The notes under the pieces are model-generated. The model saw only the letters and a program-made list of their open reading frames with translations, had not been told where the DNA came from and did no database searches. Made by a program: the position numbers and the translations under genes. 53,045 bases of DNA from Candidatus Poribacteria bacterium (GTDB lineage Bacteria; Poribacteria; WGA-4E; WGA-3G): assembly GCA_022827885.1 (NCBI GenBank), contig JAJEIP010000045.1, positions 1-53,045 on the forward strand, given 5' to 3'. Below, in pieces: positions 6,401 through 15,207 of the stretch (position 1 is its first letter; each line of letters starts with the position of its first letter).

Positions 6401-7504
6401 TCACCAATCAACAACAGAGCCGTCATCCGGATGGTATGTCACCGGATTCTGCCAATCGTGGTCGATCTTATCTTCAAGGGCATCTTCATCGAGTTCGATG
6501 CCGAGTCCAGGACCCGTGGGCAATTCAACAAATCCATCTTTGAAGACGAAGGGGTTCTTGAGATACCCTTCACCGAGTGTCGTATGCTCCTGCATCAAGA
6601 AGTTCGGGATGGAAGCATCCAACTGAATACACGCCGCTAAAGAGATGGGACCGAGCGGATTGTGCGGTGCAATACCCCCGTAGTAGGCTTCCGCCATACC
6701 CGCGATGATACGCACTTCGTTGATACCTCCAGCGTGGCAGAGGTCGGGTTGGAGAATAGACGCTGCCTGTTTCTCTAAGATTTCACGGAACCCCCACTTT
6801 GTGAACACACGCTCTCCTGTCGCAATCGGAATGTGGGTACTCCGCGCGATTTCAGCGAGGGTGTCCACATTTTGGCACTGAATCGGCTCTTCAATGAACA
6901 TCGGTTGGTAGGGTTCCAACGCTTTAATCAGAACTTTTGCGGTTTGCGGGCTGACCGCACCGTGGAAGTCAATCGCGAGGTCAACTTCTGTACCTGCGGC
7001 TTCGCGCAACGCTGCGAAGTGATCCACGGCTCTGTCGATAAAGGCTTTGTTTTCGATAATACGTGCGGGTCTGCCGCCTGCGGGACCTGTTTTGAATGCA
7101 GTGAACCCTTGATCAATCCACTCTTTGATTCCGTCTGGGTCACCCCCACCTTTATAGAGTCTAATACGGTCGCGTGTCGGTCCACCGAAGAGTTGATAGA
7201 CAGGGACCCCCAGCGATTTCCCCGCGAGATCCCAGAGTGCCTGCTCTACACCGCTCAAGGCACTCGTCAGGATGGGACCCCCGCGATAGAATGCGTGGCG
7301 ATACATCGCTTGCCAGTGGTGGACAACGCGTCTCGGATCTTGACCGATGAGGTAGGGTGCGAGTTCGTCGACGGCTTGCGCACACGTTTTCGCACGTCCT
7401 TCCAGAATAGGCTCGCCGAGTCCGACTAACCCCTCATCCGTATGGATTTTCAGAAAGAGCCAGCGCGGTTGCACCAGAAACGTTTCCAATTTTGTTATCT
7501 TCAT
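6401..7504 (-). CDS. dgoD: D-galactonate dehydratase (enolase superfamily)
   Basis: A 367-aa protein, the normal length for DgoD, with long stretches that I recognise from the E. coli enzyme: 'FLKIHTDEGLVGLGEP', 'FYRGGPILTSALSGVEQALW', 'LAIDFHGAVSPQTAKVL', 'MFIEEPIQ', 'TGERVFTKWGF', 'ILQPDLCHAGGI' and 'APHNPLGPISLAACI'. These hold the metal ligands (Asp of DFHG, Glu of EEP, Glu of GER) and catalytic His residues of the galactonate dehydratase/mandelate racemase group. The expected reaction is D-galactonate to 2-keto-3-deoxygalactonate. A related sugar acid is possible, because this subgroup is promiscuous. It is the first gene of a three-gene minus-strand block with the two isomerases. A copy of the dispersed leader element precedes the ATG. 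Confidence 0.85.
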   Translation of the reverse strand: MKITKLETFLVQPRWLFLKIHTDEGLVGLGEPILEGRAKTCAQAVDELAPYLIGQDPRRVVHHWQAMYRHAFYRGGPILTSALSGVEQALWDLAGKSLGVPVYQLFGGPTRDRIRLYKGGGDPDGIKEWIDQGFTAFKTGPAGGRPARIIENKAFIDRAVDHFAALREAAGTEVDLAIDFHGAVSPQTAKVLIKALEPYQPMFIEEPIQCQNVDTLAEIARSTHIPIATGERVFTKWGFREILEKQAASILQPDLCHAGGINEVRIIAGMAEAYYGGIAPHNPLGPISLAACIQLDASIPNFLMQEHTTLGEGYLKNPFVFKDGFVELPTGPGLGIELDEDALEDKIDHDWQNPVTYHPDDGSVVDW

Positions 7505-7570
7505 TTTTTAATTATTCCTTGCGGTTAAATGACGCGGGTTTGGACGTTAGCGTTCCTTTCTTGAATCCGC
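7505..7570 (-). repeat. leader element copy A (before dgoD)
   Basis: Minus strand: GGAGAGCGGATTCAAGAAAG, then AAACCCGCGTC, then AACCGCAAGGAATAATTAAA running straight into the ATG at 7504. It is one of at least ten copies in the window of an 80-bp class leader that ends at a start codon. Confidence 0.7.
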
Positions 7571-7812
7571 TCTCCAAATGTAAAGCTAAGACAAATTATG
7601 CCATTTAAGGAGAACCTAATTTCATTACGAGCTACGATTTTCTATTTTACGGATGCCTTGAAAGTTAATAGGTGCTTGCCGGCAGCATCTCACTACTTGA
7701 AACGGATTGCTTTGTGGGTTTTGATGTTACCTTACCATTTTCCCTGAATTTTGTCAACAATTGCAAAATTCCGTAAGATAATGCGCGCAAGAACTATGGA
7801 ACCCGATTGACG

Positions 7813-7864
7813 CAATTTTTGCGACTCCTTAAGCAATTTTTGCATGTGAAGCTACAATTTTTGC
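7813..7864 (+). promoter_or_regulatory. three 21-bp-phased direct repeats (candidate enhancer sites)
   Basis: The decamer CAATTTTTGC occurs at 7813, 7834 and 7855, identical each time and with exactly 21 bp between starts, i.e. two helical turns, so all lie on one face of the helix. They lie about 200-245 bp upstream of the sigma-54 promoter at 8058, a plausible distance for binding sites of a sigma-54 enhancer-binding protein. The role is inferred; the spacing is directly visible. Confidence 0.65.
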
Positions 7865-7937
7865 GTACCGACGATAAGCAGTATCCTACAAATGTATTCC
7901 ATTTTCTCAGCGAGAATATTCTATTTTAAGGGGCACA

Positions 7938-7947
7938 GAAACGTTTC
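7938..7947. promoter_or_regulatory. GAAACGTTTC palindrome, LacI-type operator candidate
   Basis: A perfect 10-bp palindrome with a central CG and AAAC/GTTT arms, the form common in LacI/GalR-family operators. Only one copy was seen and no LacI gene is in the window, so this is weak. Confidence 0.25.
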
Positions 7948-8057
7948 CGATCACTTTGACAAGCTTAGGGGGCCGTGTATTTCGGACGGATCATTCATCA
8001 AATAGATGCTTGAAGTTTTAACGGTTTACGGACAAAATATGCGTTTATTTTCTGAAT

Positions 8058-8073
8058 TGGCACGAAACTTGCC
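8058..8073 (+). promoter_or_regulatory. sigma-54 (RpoN) promoter
   Basis: TGGCACGAAACTTGCC matches the consensus TGGCACG-N4-TTGCW except its last base. The invariant -24 GG (8059-8060) and -12 GC (8071-8072) are separated by exactly 10 bp. Transcription would start near 8084 and give a 5' UTR of about 175 nt before the ATG at 8259. It is the obvious promoter for the lectin-like gene array. Confidence 0.8.
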
Positions 8074-8258
8074 ACTTTTGTAGCAGAATCTGTATGAAGA
8101 TTTAAATATGCGCAAGATTGACGCAAACCCTCAGACGTGTTATTATTTTTGCAATACGTTGGTTCGGTGCAGCACGGTTAAAGTCATTTTCCGTGTGTTT
8201 TTTGCACAATAACCTTTTTGAGCAAAACACTTCAAATTTAAAAAAGGAGACTTGCACA

Positions 8259-9467
8259 ATGAACCATTCTTATATCTCTTCCCTTGCAATTTTTATCGTC
8301 AGTATCATGCTGCTGTTTTCCCTGTCTCTCCAGAGTGCTGCTACGACATTTTCCGGTCGCGTTGTTGATAGAGCAGGGCATCCGATTGCTGGGCTTACGG
8401 TGGTCCTCGTTCCCGTTGAGGACGGTCATGGCGCGTGGTTTCCAATTGAAGTGAATGCGTTTGAGTGGCCAGACGATCCGACGGCGTTCCAAACGGAAAC
8501 CGATGCAGAGGGGCGTTTCACCATTACCGATGCCATTGTCGGTCCCGTGTTATTAGCATTATTTCCGTATCATAAGCCAGAGGCACATATCTTAAAGGTT
8601 CAAATCGGCGACATGTTTCTCTATGCACCTGAAGAACCGTGGGGACGCGGCATCGTGTTTTCTGTGGAACCGGGAAAGTCCATTGAGGATGTTGAAGTCA
8701 CGGTGCAGCGGTTTCTACAACTCCGAGGGACAGTGCTGAAGATGGACGGAAGCCCACTCGTCAATGCACAACGGGTCAAGTTCAGGGTAAAGCAACTCAG
8801 TTTAGATGGGGAATACGATGGTAGAACGTCATGGGGCACAGAAACGGATGCCGAAGGGAATTTCGTGCAGTACATTCCCCCGTATGTGGATGGACCTATG
8901 TTTTACTTCATGTCTGTCACATGTGGGGCCGGAAGCGCACAATTGGATCCAATTGTGGTTAAACCTGGAGATCTAAGGCATGAGGCGGTCTTTACGTTCG
9001 AGACCCCGCTAATCCCTAATATGCCCGGGGACGCTGTCCCTCGTTTCCATGGTGGGCTTGACGCAACAGGCGTATGGATCGTCAATCCCGAAAATGGGCA
9101 TGCCTACAAAAAGATCCGTTTTAGCGGCGTAGAGGATGCTATCGCTCAAGCAGCGAAAGAAGACGCGCATCTGGTCGCGATTAACGATGCAACAGAGCAG
9201 CAATGGTTGGAGCAAGCCTTTTCCCCAATGCGAACTTTGATTGGACTCAACGATGTTGAAGCAGAGGGACAATGGCAGTGGCACACTGGGGAACCCGTCA
9301 CATATACCAATTGGGCACAGTATGAACCGCAGGATACTGACAACGGTGATGAAGATTACGTCATTATGATGGGTGATAAATGGATAGATATAGGTCCTGG
9401 AGACATCCGATGGCGTTTTATTCAGACGGTGCTTTTTGAGAAGGAAAAACCTCCTGTGCAGAAGTGA
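8259..9467 (+). CDS. exported C-type-lectin-like domain protein, paralogue 1
   Basis: 402 aa. The ATG at 8259 is chosen over an upstream in-frame start because AAAAGGAGA lies 8 bp before it and a signal peptide begins there (hydrophobic 'LAIFIVSIMLLFSLSLQSA'). Domains: a carboxypeptidase-regulatory-like beta-sandwich at about residues 34-130 ('GRVVDRAGHPIAGL', 'DAEGRFTITD'), a second beta-sandwich at about 150-255 ('TDAEGNFVQYI'), and a C-type-lectin-like domain from about residue 272 ('VNPENGHAYKK', 'IGLND', 'WHTGEPVTYTNW'). CTLDs of this form bind ligands or sugars, and no catalytic site is apparent. It is the first of four paralogues on this strand, behind a sigma-54 promoter. It is probably secreted or periplasmic; the ligand is unknown. 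Confidence 0.88.
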   Translation: MNHSYISSLAIFIVSIMLLFSLSLQSAATTFSGRVVDRAGHPIAGLTVVLVPVEDGHGAWFPIEVNAFEWPDDPTAFQTETDAEGRFTITDAIVGPVLLALFPYHKPEAHILKVQIGDMFLYAPEEPWGRGIVFSVEPGKSIEDVEVTVQRFLQLRGTVLKMDGSPLVNAQRVKFRVKQLSLDGEYDGRTSWGTETDAEGNFVQYIPPYVDGPMFYFMSVTCGAGSAQLDPIVVKPGDLRHEAVFTFETPLIPNMPGDAVPRFHGGLDATGVWIVNPENGHAYKKIRFSGVEDAIAQAAKEDAHLVAINDATEQQWLEQAFSPMRTLIGLNDVEAEGQWQWHTGEPVTYTNWAQYEPQDTDNGDEDYVIMMGDKWIDIGPGDIRWRFIQTVLFEKEKPPVQK

Positions 9468-9508
9468 GCATTGTGCGTTCACAAGGGATGTTTCATGGAG
9501 AGAAAACG

Positions 9509-10927
9509 ATGAAATATACAAATTCGAAAAGAAAAATTCTAATCTGTCGAATGATGGTGGCTACGCTTCTCATCAGTTTTGTTTCGGTGGGTGTTGCTCA
9601 GGAAGATACGGGGACTGTTACCGGGCGCGTTGTTGATCTGGATGGGAAGCCGGTTGCCGAGTTGCCGATATTTATTGCACCCCTTGATGATGATGGCGAT
9701 GGAAACATGTCGCCGGTGTTTTTACCGAATGAACACGCGCAGTTGCGTCGGGCGCGCACAGACCGAGAAGGTCAGTTTTCTATAACAGGTGTCCCCTCAG
9801 GTCCGGTATACATCGGTGCACTTCCTTATGACATAGATACACGCCTACCCAAGGACTTTGAAAACATTGTAGACGAGTTCACGTCGAAAGATTGGACGGA
9901 ACTTACACAAAACGATATAGATGCGTTCGTTTCCAGTAACTTCGGTATGGATCCAGAGGACTTTGAACCAGACGTTGAAATTTTGTCCCTCCGTATCCGA
10001 GGGATAACCTTATACCCGCGCTATGATTATGATGAAATCGCGTTCGGTCTCAAACCCGGCGCGCTTATAAAGAACGTAGAGGTCACGGTGCAGCCGCGGA
10101 TGCGAATTCGCGGACGTATCCTTTTCAAGGACGGAACGCCACTTGTCAATACACGCATCGGGCTCTACACTCGCTCTCGTAATGTGGATAATGCTGGTTC
10201 CAGCAGCGGCGGTGGTGACGTGTGGGTAGACGCTGACGGATACTTTACCCGCTATATAGATGAAAAAAATGATGCTGCATTCTACACGTTTTCTTTTGAA
10301 TATCAAAATCTTTCTGTGGAGGCTGACCCGATTCGTCTTGATCCGGGGGACCGATCCGACGGACTGACATTAACCTTTGACAGCGAACCGATTCCGCCCA
10401 AACGTCCCACTCAAAAAACGGAAACAGACGAGCCTGAACTATCTCCGCCTACACCAGAACTACCGTCGATACCAGCGTCTTCTTATGACGTGTGGGTCGT
10501 CAATCCCGAAAATGGGCACGCCTATAAAAGGGTTCACTGCGAAACTCGCGACGATGCCGTTGCCCAAGCCATTGAGGAGAAAGCACATCTCGTTGTGATT
10601 AATAACGAAAAAGAGCAGGCGTGGTTAGAGGCAGTTTTCGGTCATAAATTCTATTGGATAGGACTCAAACGCGTCCCCGCGACAGGCGCGCTTTCTAAAC
10701 GGACAAAAGAGTGGTGGCAATGGGACAACGATGATCCTATCACCTATGCAAACTGGGTAACCAACGATTTCTTTGCTGAGTCTTTAGATGCCAGTGAAAG
10801 GGACTATGTCGTTATGACCCTCCCTGATGGAAAGTGGTATGCGGTGAGTCCTGAAAGTGTTATCTGGCGTATGACAAAGATGGCGATCCTCGAAAAAGAT
10901 GGATTAGTGTCTACGATAGGGAAGTAG
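9509..10927 (+). CDS. exported C-type-lectin-like domain protein, paralogue 2
   Basis: 472 aa from the ATG at 9509, which has GGAGAG upstream and begins a signal peptide ('ILICRMMVATLLISFVSVGVAQ'). An in-frame GTG at 9464 overlapping the previous gene would put extra residues before the signal peptide and is less likely. The architecture matches paralogue 1: regulatory-like sandwich ('GRVVDLDGKPVAEL'), second sandwich ('FKDGTPLVNTRI', 'VDADGYFTRYI'), a Pro/Glu/Thr-rich linker near residues 300-325, then a lectin-like domain from about 328 ('NPENGHAYKR', 'FYWIGLKR', 'DPITYANW'). The first sandwich carries an acidic insertion of about 60 residues absent from its siblings. Confidence 0.88.
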   Translation: MKYTNSKRKILICRMMVATLLISFVSVGVAQEDTGTVTGRVVDLDGKPVAELPIFIAPLDDDGDGNMSPVFLPNEHAQLRRARTDREGQFSITGVPSGPVYIGALPYDIDTRLPKDFENIVDEFTSKDWTELTQNDIDAFVSSNFGMDPEDFEPDVEILSLRIRGITLYPRYDYDEIAFGLKPGALIKNVEVTVQPRMRIRGRILFKDGTPLVNTRIGLYTRSRNVDNAGSSSGGGDVWVDADGYFTRYIDEKNDAAFYTFSFEYQNLSVEADPIRLDPGDRSDGLTLTFDSEPIPPKRPTQKTETDEPELSPPTPELPSIPASSYDVWVVNPENGHAYKRVHCETRDDAVAQAIEEKAHLVVINNEKEQAWLEAVFGHKFYWIGLKRVPATGALSKRTKEWWQWDNDDPITYANWVTNDFFAESLDASERDYVVMTLPDGKWYAVSPESVIWRMTKMAILEKDGLVSTIGK

Positions 10928-10997
10928 GGTGTCTTTTCACGTTTCAGACGGTTCCGACGCCACGATAGACGGAACCAGCGATAAGGAAGTGTTTCTA

Positions 10998-12536
10998 TTG
11001 AAATATGTATTTTTAGGCGGCGCAGGCGAAGTCGGGGCATCGTGTTTGTTAGTATCCGTTGCTGATCGGAACATCCTCATCGATGCGGGGATTCGGGTCA
11101 ACGCGTCCGGTGAAGCCGCCCTGCCAGACTTCAAGACCCTCAGAGAGATGACATCGACGCTCGATGCGATCTTTATCTCTCATGCCCATGCCGATCACAT
11201 CGGTGCCCTGCCGTTGGTCCATCAGCTGTTCCCACAAACGCCGATCTATACCACCTTACCCACCCAACGGCTCTCCGGAGTGATGTTAAGCGATGCCGTG
11301 CGGGTGCAGGAATTCGGTGCGGAGAAACTCTTTAACCAAGAAGCCGTCGATACTGTCCTCTGGAAGATGGAAACGGTTGAAATGGGGATCTGGCATCCGC
11401 TCTGGGATGATTTCCGGTATCAGTTTCACGCTTCCGGACACGTCTTGGGTGCCGTCTCTATCCTCTTAGAGACCCCCGAAGGCAAGCTGCTTTATTCTGG
11501 AGATGTCTCGGCATTTAACCAGAACACCATCGACGGCATCAAGGATATTAGTTTTTTTAAACCGGATCTGATGTGGTGTGAGGCGACGTACGGTGCCTCT
11601 AATCATCCGTCCCGCAGTGAAGAAGAGAAACGGTTGGCAACATCGGTTGCAGAAGTCATTGAAGGGGGCGGTTCGGTGCTGATCCCATCTTTCGCGCTCG
11701 GACGCGCCCAAGAGATCATTTTGATCCTCAAGAAGATGCAAGAGGCGAAAACGATCCCGAAGTTCCCCGTCATCACCGACGGGTTAGTGAATGTGATCTG
11801 CTCGATTTATGAGTCGCTCCCGCCGCATCTGGGTACGAAACTTCACAATTACATTCTCAACTCCCGGCAGCCGATTTTCCATACCGCCTCGGTCCGAAAA
11901 GCGAAACCGGGTGAACGTGAAAAACTTCTCAATGATGGAAGACCGAAGTGTATTATTGCCTCATCTGGGATGCTAACGGGGGGTGCGTCTGTGTTTTATG
12001 CGACAGGACTGGCAGGTAACGAAAAAAACGCCATATTCCTCTCTGGCTACCAAGACGCGGAATCCCCTGGACGTAGACTACAGGAATTGAAATCCGGCGA
12101 TGAACTCCAGCTCGCGGATAAAACGGTGGAAGTCAAGTGTCGGATCGATCGTTTCGGTTTATCGGCACATTCCGACCAACAACAACTTATGAATATGATC
12201 CGCCAGGCTGCTCCGAAGGCACTTGCACTGGTGCATGCTGAACCTGAAGTCGCTGAGGCACTGCGGGAGCGGATCTATAAGGACTACATTATGTATTCGC
12301 CTATCAACGGGCAGGTAGAAGATGGAACACAGCGTCCACTCTGGCAACCCCCGGAGAAGAAGGTAAAACCCGAGACACCGCCCCCATTGGACTTTGATAT
12401 CGCCTTTGGAGAGGCGAATACCTTGCATATCCCTGATGAGATTGCCGATGTCGATCGCTGGAAGGCGTTCATTGAAGGTGAGCATACGGCGCGATTAAAG
12501 GGAGATGCGTTGATCATTCGAAAGCGAGAACCGTGA
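10998..12536 (+). CDS. metallo-beta-lactamase / beta-CASP RNA-processing nuclease
   Basis: A protein of the CPSF73/YSH1-like beta-CASP group. The metal site is complete: 'SHAHADHIGALPL' (HxHxDH), 'HASGHVLGA' and 'LYSGDVS'. The beta-CASP motifs follow: 'WCEATYG', 'RFGLSAHSDQ' and 'ALVHAEPEV'. Such enzymes are zinc-dependent endo/exoribonucleases. The chosen TTG start at 10998 (AAGGAAG 8 bp upstream) begins 'LKYVFLGGAGEVG', the usual beginning of the family. A GTG at 10929 would add 23 unlikely residues. The C-terminal 60-80 residues extend beyond the nuclease core. It sits between lectin-like paralogues 2 and 3 on the same strand, with no obvious link in function. Confidence 0.88.
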   Translation: MKYVFLGGAGEVGASCLLVSVADRNILIDAGIRVNASGEAALPDFKTLREMTSTLDAIFISHAHADHIGALPLVHQLFPQTPIYTTLPTQRLSGVMLSDAVRVQEFGAEKLFNQEAVDTVLWKMETVEMGIWHPLWDDFRYQFHASGHVLGAVSILLETPEGKLLYSGDVSAFNQNTIDGIKDISFFKPDLMWCEATYGASNHPSRSEEEKRLATSVAEVIEGGGSVLIPSFALGRAQEIILILKKMQEAKTIPKFPVITDGLVNVICSIYESLPPHLGTKLHNYILNSRQPIFHTASVRKAKPGEREKLLNDGRPKCIIASSGMLTGGASVFYATGLAGNEKNAIFLSGYQDAESPGRRLQELKSGDELQLADKTVEVKCRIDRFGLSAHSDQQQLMNMIRQAAPKALALVHAEPEVAEALRERIYKDYIMYSPINGQVEDGTQRPLWQPPEKKVKPETPPPLDFDIAFGEANTLHIPDEIADVDRWKAFIEGEHTARLKGDALIIRKREP

Positions 12537-12654: not shown

Positions 12655-13878
12655 GTGAAACTTCACAGTTTCAGACAAAATCTTGGATTACTTTTCTCAA
12701 TAACGACACTTTCCCTTCTGATATCATCACCTATCGTAGCACAGCAAGGGGCGCGGATTTCCGGACGCGTCGTTGACGAACTTGGGAGCCACGTTTCGAA
12801 TATTTCCGTCGTCGTCCTACCCCACGGTGAGATGGGCGGGCCACCGCAAATTGGATTCTTGCCCTTACAGCAAACATGGACCGATGCAGAGGGACGTTTT
12901 TCTCTCACAAACATTGGACAGGAATCGGTTACCTTGATCGTAGGTGATAGAGACAACGAGATGGAGGTGCTTTCTATTGAAATCGGGAAACTGAGCCTTT
13001 ATCCGATCCGTCACCCACATTTTGGTAAAATTAGGTTTTCACTGGAACCAGGAACCGAAATTGGAAACGTTGTCATTACAGTGAAGTTGGAGACGAAACC
13101 GCAGATTCGCGCACGGGTCGTTTTTGCTGACGGAACCTCACTTGCGAATGCTTCGATTTATAGGATCCTGCAATATAAAAACCTTGATGGAAGTCGCAGC
13201 GGGAGTTCAAGCGGTGCAGCGGATACCGATGCAGACGGATATTTTGTGGAAGACCTCGATGAAGAAGACGATTTGGGATTCTATGTGCTCGGGGTTGAAT
13301 ATGATGGACTCGTCGCAAAATCCGTTCCGTTCATGCTCTATGAGGGACAACCGCAAGTGCATCTGCTTTTGACGCTCAACGGCAATCTGAGCCCGCTAAC
13401 GCAACGCATGCCGGATCCCATAGAAATGGGTGCCGCATTGGCGAAGTTCCTCAATCCACAAGCAGTATGGGTGGTGAATCCCGCGAATCGACACGCTTAT
13501 AAACAAATTGATACTCACGGGATCACGGACGCAATCGCACAAGCGACTGGGGAGAATGCGTATCTTGTCGCGATTAACGATGCCTCGGAAGCCGACTGGA
13601 TACAGAAAATCTTCGGAAGAAAACAGTTTTGGATTGGACTCAACGATGTCGCCGAGGAGGGACGGTGGATGTGGGACAGCGGCGAACCTGTTACGTATAC
13701 CAATTGGGATCGGTATAGTGTAGAAGGCGGTAACACCAAGATGAAAGATTACGTCATCGTTGCATTTAGCGGTCAATGGCAGGCGGTTGAAGCAAGAAAT
13801 CCGCGAACCCGCCGTATCACAAAGGCGATTCTTGAAAAAGCAGCAACGCCTGTCAAAATACCCGCTGCGGACAATTAG
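12655..13878 (+). CDS. exported C-type-lectin-like domain protein, paralogue 3
   Basis: 407 aa starting at GTG 12655 with AAAAGGAGA upstream. A signal peptide ('LLFSITTLSLLISSPIVAQQ') leads to a regulatory-like sandwich ('GRVVDELGSHVSNISV', 'DAEGRFSLTN'), a second sandwich ('FADGTSLANASIY', 'TDADGYFVEDL') and a lectin-like domain from about residue 271 ('NPANRHAYKQ', 'FWIGLND', 'WDSGEPVTYTNW'). The last block is closest to paralogue 1. The leader (12537-12654) contains a GCGAAAA/TTTTCGC stem without a U-run. Confidence 0.88.
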   Translation: MKLHSFRQNLGLLFSITTLSLLISSPIVAQQGARISGRVVDELGSHVSNISVVVLPHGEMGGPPQIGFLPLQQTWTDAEGRFSLTNIGQESVTLIVGDRDNEMEVLSIEIGKLSLYPIRHPHFGKIRFSLEPGTEIGNVVITVKLETKPQIRARVVFADGTSLANASIYRILQYKNLDGSRSGSSSGAADTDADGYFVEDLDEEDDLGFYVLGVEYDGLVAKSVPFMLYEGQPQVHLLLTLNGNLSPLTQRMPDPIEMGAALAKFLNPQAVWVVNPANRHAYKQIDTHGITDAIAQATGENAYLVAINDASEADWIQKIFGRKQFWIGLNDVAEEGRWMWDSGEPVTYTNWDRYSVEGGNTKMKDYVIVAFSGQWQAVEARNPRTRRITKAILEKAATPVKIPAADN

Positions 13879-13902
13879 CTGGACTCCAAAGGAGAATTGA
13901 AT

Positions 13903-15207
13903 ATGAGTCGCCTGGATTTCACACGTTTTGTATGCCTCGTCGGAATTGCAGGATTCTGGTTCATCGCAGTAGTCCCGTGTATCGCGCAGGAAGATATGGG
14001 ATCGCTTTCGGGACGTGTCCTTGATATGGCGGATGAACCGATTGCTGACTTCACGATTGCCCTATCACCCGTTGTAATAGAGGACAGCGGAAGCATGCAT
14101 AGACCGATGGGACCTCCGCACCCGGGTTTTCTAACCGAAAAGACGGATGAAAACGGGGCATTCACGTTTACCGAAATTAAGCCTGGACCGTTGCAATTTC
14201 TGATACCCCCGCAGCAATTCAACTTTCAAGGTGATGATGAAATTGTTTCCACCAAAATCGGAGGTATGACGCTGTATCTGGACAGGCATGTGCCTTTCGG
14301 AAGTGTCACGTTCGGACTGCAGCCCGGGGGTGATGTTGAAAATGTCGAGGTTACGGTGCGACCCCGGATGCGGATTCGAGCGAGAGTCGTTTTTAAAGAT
14401 GGAACCCCTTTAGCCAACGCCTCCATTTCCAGAGAAATCAAAAGTGAGGACGCAGACGGGCGCGGCGAGGGACATTCCAGTGGAGGGGCTACTACGGATG
14501 CCGAGGGATACTTTATGCATTATATCCATAGGCATAATGATCCGGCGTTTTATACGGTGTTCGTTAGGTATGAGGGACTCTCCGCAAAGTCGGAGGAGTT
14601 CCTGATGGAACCGGGGGCACGTTATGATGACTTGGTCTTGACGCTTGACAGTCAAGTAACACCTAACGCGGAAACTTCTCCAGAGTCCGTCAAGTTGGCC
14701 CGACCGCCTATCCCCACAAAATCTGCTACGCCGAAGCCGCGTGTCCCGGTTCGACCGCTGCGGCTGCCAGACAATAAGACGGCATGGGTTGTGAATCCTG
14801 AAAATGGACACGCTTATGCAAAAATTCGGTGCAGAAGTCTTCAGGAAGCACGAGACCGAGCCGCCACCGAAGGCGCGTCTCTCGTCGCTATTAACGACGA
14901 AGCCGAGCAGAGATGGCTATCTGCTTTCTTTGGAAATTACCTCTATTGGATAGGACTCAGCAATGCCGAAGCAGAAGAGACGTGGGTATGGCATACCGAA
15001 GAACCTCTGACCTATACGAACTGGGGACCCGAAAATAGGTTTTTTCGGAGCATCTTCTCGGCAAAAGAAAAAAAAGGCGTTCTCATGACTTTTGTAGATG
15101 GAGAATGGCACGCCGTTGGTCCCGGCGACCTTTTCTGGGACAAAACCGGCATGGCGATCCTCGAAAAACTGGATGGGTTTGATGGGCCTTCTGTCGAAGA
15201 GAAATAA
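13903..15207 (+). CDS. exported C-type-lectin-like domain protein, paralogue 4
   Basis: 434 aa from the ATG at 13903, 8 bp after AAAGGAG; the gene follows paralogue 3 by 24 bp. The signal peptide contains 'VGIAGFWFIAVVPCIAQ'. Regulatory-like sandwich ('GRVLDMADEPIADF', 'DENGAFTFTE'), second sandwich ('FKDGTPLANASISRE', 'TDAEGYFMHYI'), a Pro/Lys-rich linker, then a lectin-like domain from about residue 294 ('NPENGHAYAK', 'YWIGLSNA', 'WHTEEPLTYTNW'). It closes the array; the convergent pyrB gene ends 8 bp downstream. Confidence 0.88.
   Translation: MSRLDFTRFVCLVGIAGFWFIAVVPCIAQEDMGSLSGRVLDMADEPIADFTIALSPVVIEDSGSMHRPMGPPHPGFLTEKTDENGAFTFTEIKPGPLQFLIPPQQFNFQGDDEIVSTKIGGMTLYLDRHVPFGSVTFGLQPGGDVENVEVTVRPRMRIRARVVFKDGTPLANASISREIKSEDADGRGEGHSSGGATTDAEGYFMHYIHRHNDPAFYTVFVRYEGLSAKSEEFLMEPGARYDDLVLTLDSQVTPNAETSPESVKLARPPIPTKSATPKPRVPVRPLRLPDNKTAWVVNPENGHAYAKIRCRSLQEARDRAATEGASLVAINDEAEQRWLSAFFGNYLYWIGLSNAEAEETWVWHTEEPLTYTNWGPENRFFRSIFSAKEKKGVLMTFVDGEWHAVGPGDLFWDKTGMAILEKLDGFDGPSVEEK

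Follow-up and report, generated by a model that had tools for sequence, protein, structure and literature searches.

The lectin locus and its upstream region

The window, i.e. the whole stretch of 53,045 nucleotides that was analysed, is contig C141 of a 5.13-Mb genome (148 contigs, 96.7% complete) of the Poribacteria, a phylum known from sponges. Features at and around the intergenic region studied here are as follows, with protein domains assigned by Pfam:

6401..7504, minus strand: mandelate racemase/muconate lactonizing type enzyme, conserved left neighbour that served as anchor for locating the empty site
7774..8103 (ends +/- about 10 bases), plus strand: lineage-specific insertion, enhancer-promoter cassette of about 330 bp, from two-flank alignment to genome G041
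7813..7822, plus strand: candidate activator site 1, CAATTTTTGC, exact match
7834..7843, plus strand: candidate activator site 2, CAATTTTTGC, exact match, 21 bp from site 1
7855..7864, plus strand: candidate activator site 3, CAATTTTTGC, exact match, 21 bp from site 2
8057..8072, plus strand: sigma-54 promoter, -24/-12 elements TTGGCACGAAACTTGC, zero consensus mismatches, usual distance to the array
8083..8085, plus strand: expected (putative) sigma-54 transcription start, about 12 bases after the -12 GC
8118..8146, plus strand: sigma-70-type promoter TTGACG-N17-TATTAT, conserved lectin promoter, 10 of 12 consensus bases
8259..9467, plus strand: secreted-type protein, CarboxypepD_reg and C-type lectin domain
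9464..10927, plus strand: CarboxypepD_reg and C-type lectin domain protein
10929..12536, plus strand: beta-CASP metallo-beta-lactamase protein (ribonuclease type), inside the lectin operon
12655..13878, plus strand: CarboxypepD_reg and C-type lectin domain protein
13897..15207, plus strand: CarboxypepD_reg and C-type lectin domain protein

The three copies of CAATTTTTGC are exact and spaced by 21 bp, in agreement with the original prediction for this DNA, and an exact-match search of the whole window found no further copy. Since they are two helical turns apart, the three sites lie on one face of the DNA. The predicted sigma-54 site with GG-N10-GC spacing was likewise recovered, as TTGGCACGAAACTTGCC at 8057-8073: GG at 8059-8060 is followed by ten bases and by GC at 8071-8072, with zero mismatches to TTGGCACG-N4-TTGC, that is, a GG-N10-GC core within TTGGCAC-N5-TTGC. 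The last activator site, for which binding is predicted, lies 204 bp upstream of this promoter, inside the 80-250 bp range expected of upstream activator sites. Transcription from sigma-54 promoters is expected to start about 12 bases past the -12 GC. The segment TGGCACGAAACTTGCCA (8058-8074), which covers the sigma-54 site, is moreover nearly palindromic, and it was flagged as a terminator-like hairpin.

Downstream, the four lectin-like proteins of the original prediction are indeed encoded, but as a run broken by the beta-CASP/metallo-beta-lactamase gene at 10929-12536, and the best sigma-70-like site is not near 8240, as had been proposed, but the one at 8118-8146. Its same-place counterparts read TTGACA-N17-TATCAT in genome G041 and TTGACA-N17-TATTAT in G057. 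Every one of the 59 family genomes encodes lectin-type proteins of this kind, and the order of the locus (mandelate-racemase-type gene, lectins, carbamoyltransferase gene) is conserved, with the lectins themselves rearranged in the window. The left-neighbour enzyme is found beside lectins at 99% identity in G041, G057 and G028.

Phased arrays and a candidate activator

The exact 21-bp pair of CAATTTTTGC has 72 matches, in 20 of the 59 family genomes, against 0 for the reversed control, which rules out a chance origin of the repeats; the pair was not found in 26 genomes of the phylum from outside the family. Distinct same-strand site pairs are spaced by 21 bp in 76 cases, by 42 bp in 29 and by 63 bp in 7, with few departures from this rule (5 at 20 bp, 2 at 19 bp) and none at 10-11, 22 or 31-32 bp. 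The logo derived from 151 distinct sites, rCAATTTTTGCg, is an imperfect dyad of GCAA and TTGC around some three bases. The number of sites per array varies: besides triple arrays, 42 arrays have two sites, nine have four and one has five.

A strong same-strand sigma-54 site (at least 21.5 of 24 points; chance rate 0.026 per 400 bp) lies downstream of 67 of the 77 arrays with room for one, where about 2 would be expected, and is lacking at the other 10; the 77 include orthologous loci, and are thus not all independent. This association is not built in, because the arrays were picked by motif and not by promoter. Sixty-three of these sites lie at 150-240 bp from the array (median 202), the distance also seen in the window. 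The comparison makes the sigma-54 reading of the predicted element in the window well supported. A modest signal of helical phasing between array and promoter peaks near 11.25 bp instead of 10.5 bp and is driven largely by the cluster at 202 bp; such phasing is therefore not claimed. A literature search found no paper on sigma-54 control in Poribacteria.

The genome of the window has a single rpoN (contig C82, E 1.3e-57), so that absence of the sigma factor cannot be held against this reading, and nine strong Sigma54_activat proteins (enhancer-binding proteins, bEBPs). A genome-wide search for the 21-bp pair yielded two perfect triple arrays, that of the window and one at C73:11307-11358 (minus strand). 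Downstream of the C73 array, TTGGCATGAAACTTGCC stands at the usual distance, ahead of genes for a membrane protein of 86 aa and a STAS protein; the array is flanked on the opposite side by a gene for a 380-aa bEBP, transcribed divergently, away from the array. A weaker third array on C64 precedes ATGGCACGAAATTTGC and a gene for an FRG/TPR protein.

The C73 protein has the features of a bEBP, with a Sigma54_activat domain (E 4e-63) from residue 12, an AAA lid and a GAFTGA loop, and is of the sensor-less, PspF type in that no N-terminal sensor domain is present. Its C terminus resembles a Fis-type HTH weakly (HTH_8 at E 0.03-0.15, below cut-off). An AlphaFold model built from four sequences (pLDDT 40) was uninformative and was set aside. 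At E 1e-80, this protein has one other match in the same genome, limited to the AAA+ part, and its relatives with names are from Candidatus Poribacteria MAGs. Orthologues at 72-77% identity were found in G024, G003, G028, G041 and G027, all five with an array at the bEBP gene, such that the array adjoins this gene in six of the six genomes with a full-length orthologue. In more distant family members, an array with a sigma-54 site frequently precedes the bEBP gene itself, which implies autoactivation. Co-occurrence of arrays and this bEBP clade across genomes is imperfect as evidence, with no close bEBP found in four of the 20 genomes that have the exact pair (G031, G035, G052 and G056), and adjacency of array and bEBP gene was therefore used instead. 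A sigma-54 regulon under the C73 bEBP is the best reading of the predicted sites.

Two further observations concern arrays and bEBP genes. The single-contig genome G056 has a perfect triple array with a sigma-54 site (L253, G056:C1:4518000-4527000) and no close-clade bEBP was found in it; this array may be read by another bEBP, or be an orphan copy. A second, more degenerate array of 3-4 sites stands beside bEBP genes at loci L142, L164, L173 and L181, pointing away from the bEBP, and no recognisable sigma-54 site was found at these four arrays.

Insertion at the lectin locus and dispersed copies

The orthologous intergenic region of G041 aligns with the window on both flanks, up to 7773 and from 8104, and the approximately 330 bases between these best cuts are found in the window only. 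The syntenic locus of G041 thus represents an empty site, and the cassette sits just upstream of the conserved sigma-70-type promoter. The simplest reading of this alignment is that a sigma-54 unit was added, in the lineage of the window, to an ancestral sigma-70-type lectin promoter. Visual inspection of the alignments showed no inverted ends of the insertion; an apparent direct repeat, imperfect at 8 of 11 positions alike, lies on either side of it, TTCCGTAAGAT near 7769 and ATGCGCAAGAT near 8107. The orthologous region of G057 (L246, around 8000-8200) contains a different, MITE-like insert with inverted ends AGGACTTACGCA / TGCGTAAGTCCT, and this intergenic spot therefore appears to take insertions repeatedly.

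Such an insertion could have changed little, with the lectin operon still transcribed essentially from the sigma-70-type promoter, which is conserved in G041 and G057 whereas the cassette is not. Conservation of sigma-54 control at lectin promoters was not found: an array with a sigma-54 site upstream is missing at 29 other lectin loci, including that of a 91%-identical orthologue. Nevertheless, the cassette of the window is intact, with three perfect sites, a full-consensus promoter and the usual distance between them, even though its spacer has diverged by 20-28% from those of its relatives, which suggests that selection maintains it, and the -35 box of the window (TTGACG) is one base weaker than those of G041 and G057. 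We consider a largely silent insertion unlikely, if the most serious of the alternatives.

A second gain concerns G041: ahead of a conserved ORF and lpdA it has a cassette that is absent from 28 relatives (1.5 kb upstream read in each). This case is less clean, the left flank not being conserved. Presence and absence at orthologous loci, one mark of mobile promoters, is thus observed both for the window against G041 and for the lpdA locus of G041.

The other mark, homologous copies with unrelated flanks, is evident as well. Aligned over 261 bp, the core of the window cassette (7813-8073) shares 79% identity with a copy in G027:C2; its identity to copies in G035:C311, G035:C322 and G027:C52 is 72-75%, and the spacer of about 190 bp between array and promoter is shared between copies while both flanks are unrelated. 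This conservation of the spacer is without evident need. Within single genomes, 20 of 52 cassette pairs have related spacers, and in 13 of those 20 the downstream DNA is unrelated (spacer z scores were obtained from single-base shuffles, and low values are unreliable; strong cases show 70-95% identity over more than 200 bp).

Could these copies instead stem from old duplications of entire gene neighbourhoods, or from faulty assembly, with no promoter unit spreading at all? Copies in G003 do have downstream genes in common too, and several contigs end at cassettes, such that misjoins are possible in short-read MAGs. Yet unrelated downstream DNA in 13 of the 20 significant same-genome pairs speaks against duplicated neighbourhoods, a weaker sharing of cassettes is also seen in the single-contig genome G054, and the window copy lies within one contig. 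A chimera is unlikely for this copy because both flanks match one syntenic G041 locus. Duplication or misassembly is accordingly a doubtful explanation, and somewhat more so than a silent insertion.

MAG contigs ending at or near a cassette are G027:C98, G027:C60, G032:C37, G032:C78 and G029:C3, as expected of a repeat, and copy numbers in short-read MAGs are therefore probably underestimates. Another related cassette copy, in G022:C178, lies between two tandem genes that resemble tyrosine recombinases by eye (L318, G022:C178:86000-95903, 6587-8520), in a region that looks like a defence or mobile stretch. These neighbours are possibly a clue to how the cassette may move.

Proposed mode of action, known systems and scope of the regulon

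The element in the window is probably a sigma-54 enhancer-promoter, read by the one-component C73 bEBP, that arrived as a cassette of about 330 bp. Each of its three 11-bp imperfect dyads (rCAATTTTTGC) would bind one dimer of this protein, and three dimers on one DNA face could nucleate an AAA+ hexamer, by analogy with the norR-norVW intergenic region of E. coli, where the three NorR enhancer sites upstream of norVW are indispensable and serve as a scaffold for a higher-order bEBP oligomer (PMC2941729). The hexamer would then loop over some 200 bp to sigma-54 polymerase at 8057-8072 and open the promoter, with RNA starting near 8084. By entering the lectin intergenic region, the cassette would have added sigma-54 control on top of the older sigma-70-type promoter, and cassettes before unrelated genes of the family would put those genes under the same activator. 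As it has no sensor domain, the C73 bEBP is probably regulated through its amount or by factors acting in trans. Such control could come from autoactivation, as implied in its family, or from the STAS and small membrane proteins that recur behind arrays.

It is improbable that the repeats act by phased T-tract bending of DNA, or bind a protein other than the C73 bEBP: T5 tracts 21 bp apart are in helical phase, eight other strong bEBPs exist in the genome and some genomes have arrays with no close bEBP of the C73 clade, but the CA and GC flanks of the site are as conserved as the T-tract (1.5-1.9 bits) and one-turn spacings are absent, unlike what simple bending would give, which disfavours bending alone, while the adjacency of array and C73-type gene in all six genomes with a full-length orthologue, and the restriction of the sole other same-genome match to the AAA+ part, argue for the C73 protein.

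The proposed control by the C73 bEBP has several known parallels. NorR likewise has three enhancer sites between the bEBP gene and its target, but contains a GAF sensor domain, and the Poribacterial array differs in recurring at many further loci. PspF, the phage-shock activator, shares an AAA+ sigma-54 activation domain without N-terminal sensor; solved PspF structures align with the C73 bEBP, although the best PDB matches are other NtrC-family proteins, and the C73 protein differs in its C terminus and its wider regulon. In Desulfovibrio vulgaris, genes for one-component EBPs divergent from sigma-54 promoters with EBP motifs have been described by comparative genomics, and the available part of that description mentions no dispersed enhancer-promoter unit (PMC4641369). 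Prokaryotic mobile promoters are short promoter-bearing repeats at several genome places (as cited in PMC8049555), which, as far as that citation goes, is also true of the Poribacterial unit; the latter differs in combining a sigma-54 promoter with putative phased binding sites of one activator.

In the usual view, a regulon gains genes gradually, as single binding sites slowly evolve. The sigma-54 regulon proposed here seems to expand when a ready-made enhancer is inserted together with its promoter, and a close relative has the empty site. It is tempting to speculate, and we give it an even chance, that the whole sigma-54 control unit, from phased array through spacer to promoter, acts as a small non-coding element that spreads both inside Poribacterial genomes and from one to another. 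Wherever it lands, a gene would join the regulon of a single sensor-less activator, which is itself encoded next to the same unit; in the present case the recruit is a lectin operon that may face the host. The novel part is this apparent dispersal of enhancer and promoter as one unit, a putative variant of mobile promoters. For an uncultured phylum, these data supply an activator, a motif and a rule of spacing that can be tested, with the lectin operon among the recent gains.

The first genes behind arrays comprise bEBP family genes and genes for small membrane proteins starting with MFR, STAS proteins, ECF sigma factors and other membrane or secreted-type proteins. Because the same arrays precede so many unrelated genes, the candidate activator is not dedicated to lectins, and in this respect the original prediction has to be revised; its sigma-54 promoter and phased sites stand, and the further 21-bp arrays before sigma-54 sites, the rpoN gene and the bEBP gene that it had suggested looking for were all found, the candidate activator gene having the same array. 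It has been suggested that sigma-54 is generally linked to the cell exterior (PMC3162934).

STAS proteins (anti-anti-sigma type) recur behind cassettes in different genomes (L053, 10496-10846; L139; L147, 4141-4482), which suggests that the regulon is connected to a partner switch. ECF-type sigma factor genes, some with long C-terminal fusions, are the first behind arrays at L166, L170, L175 and L182, and a sigma-54 to ECF cascade is possible.
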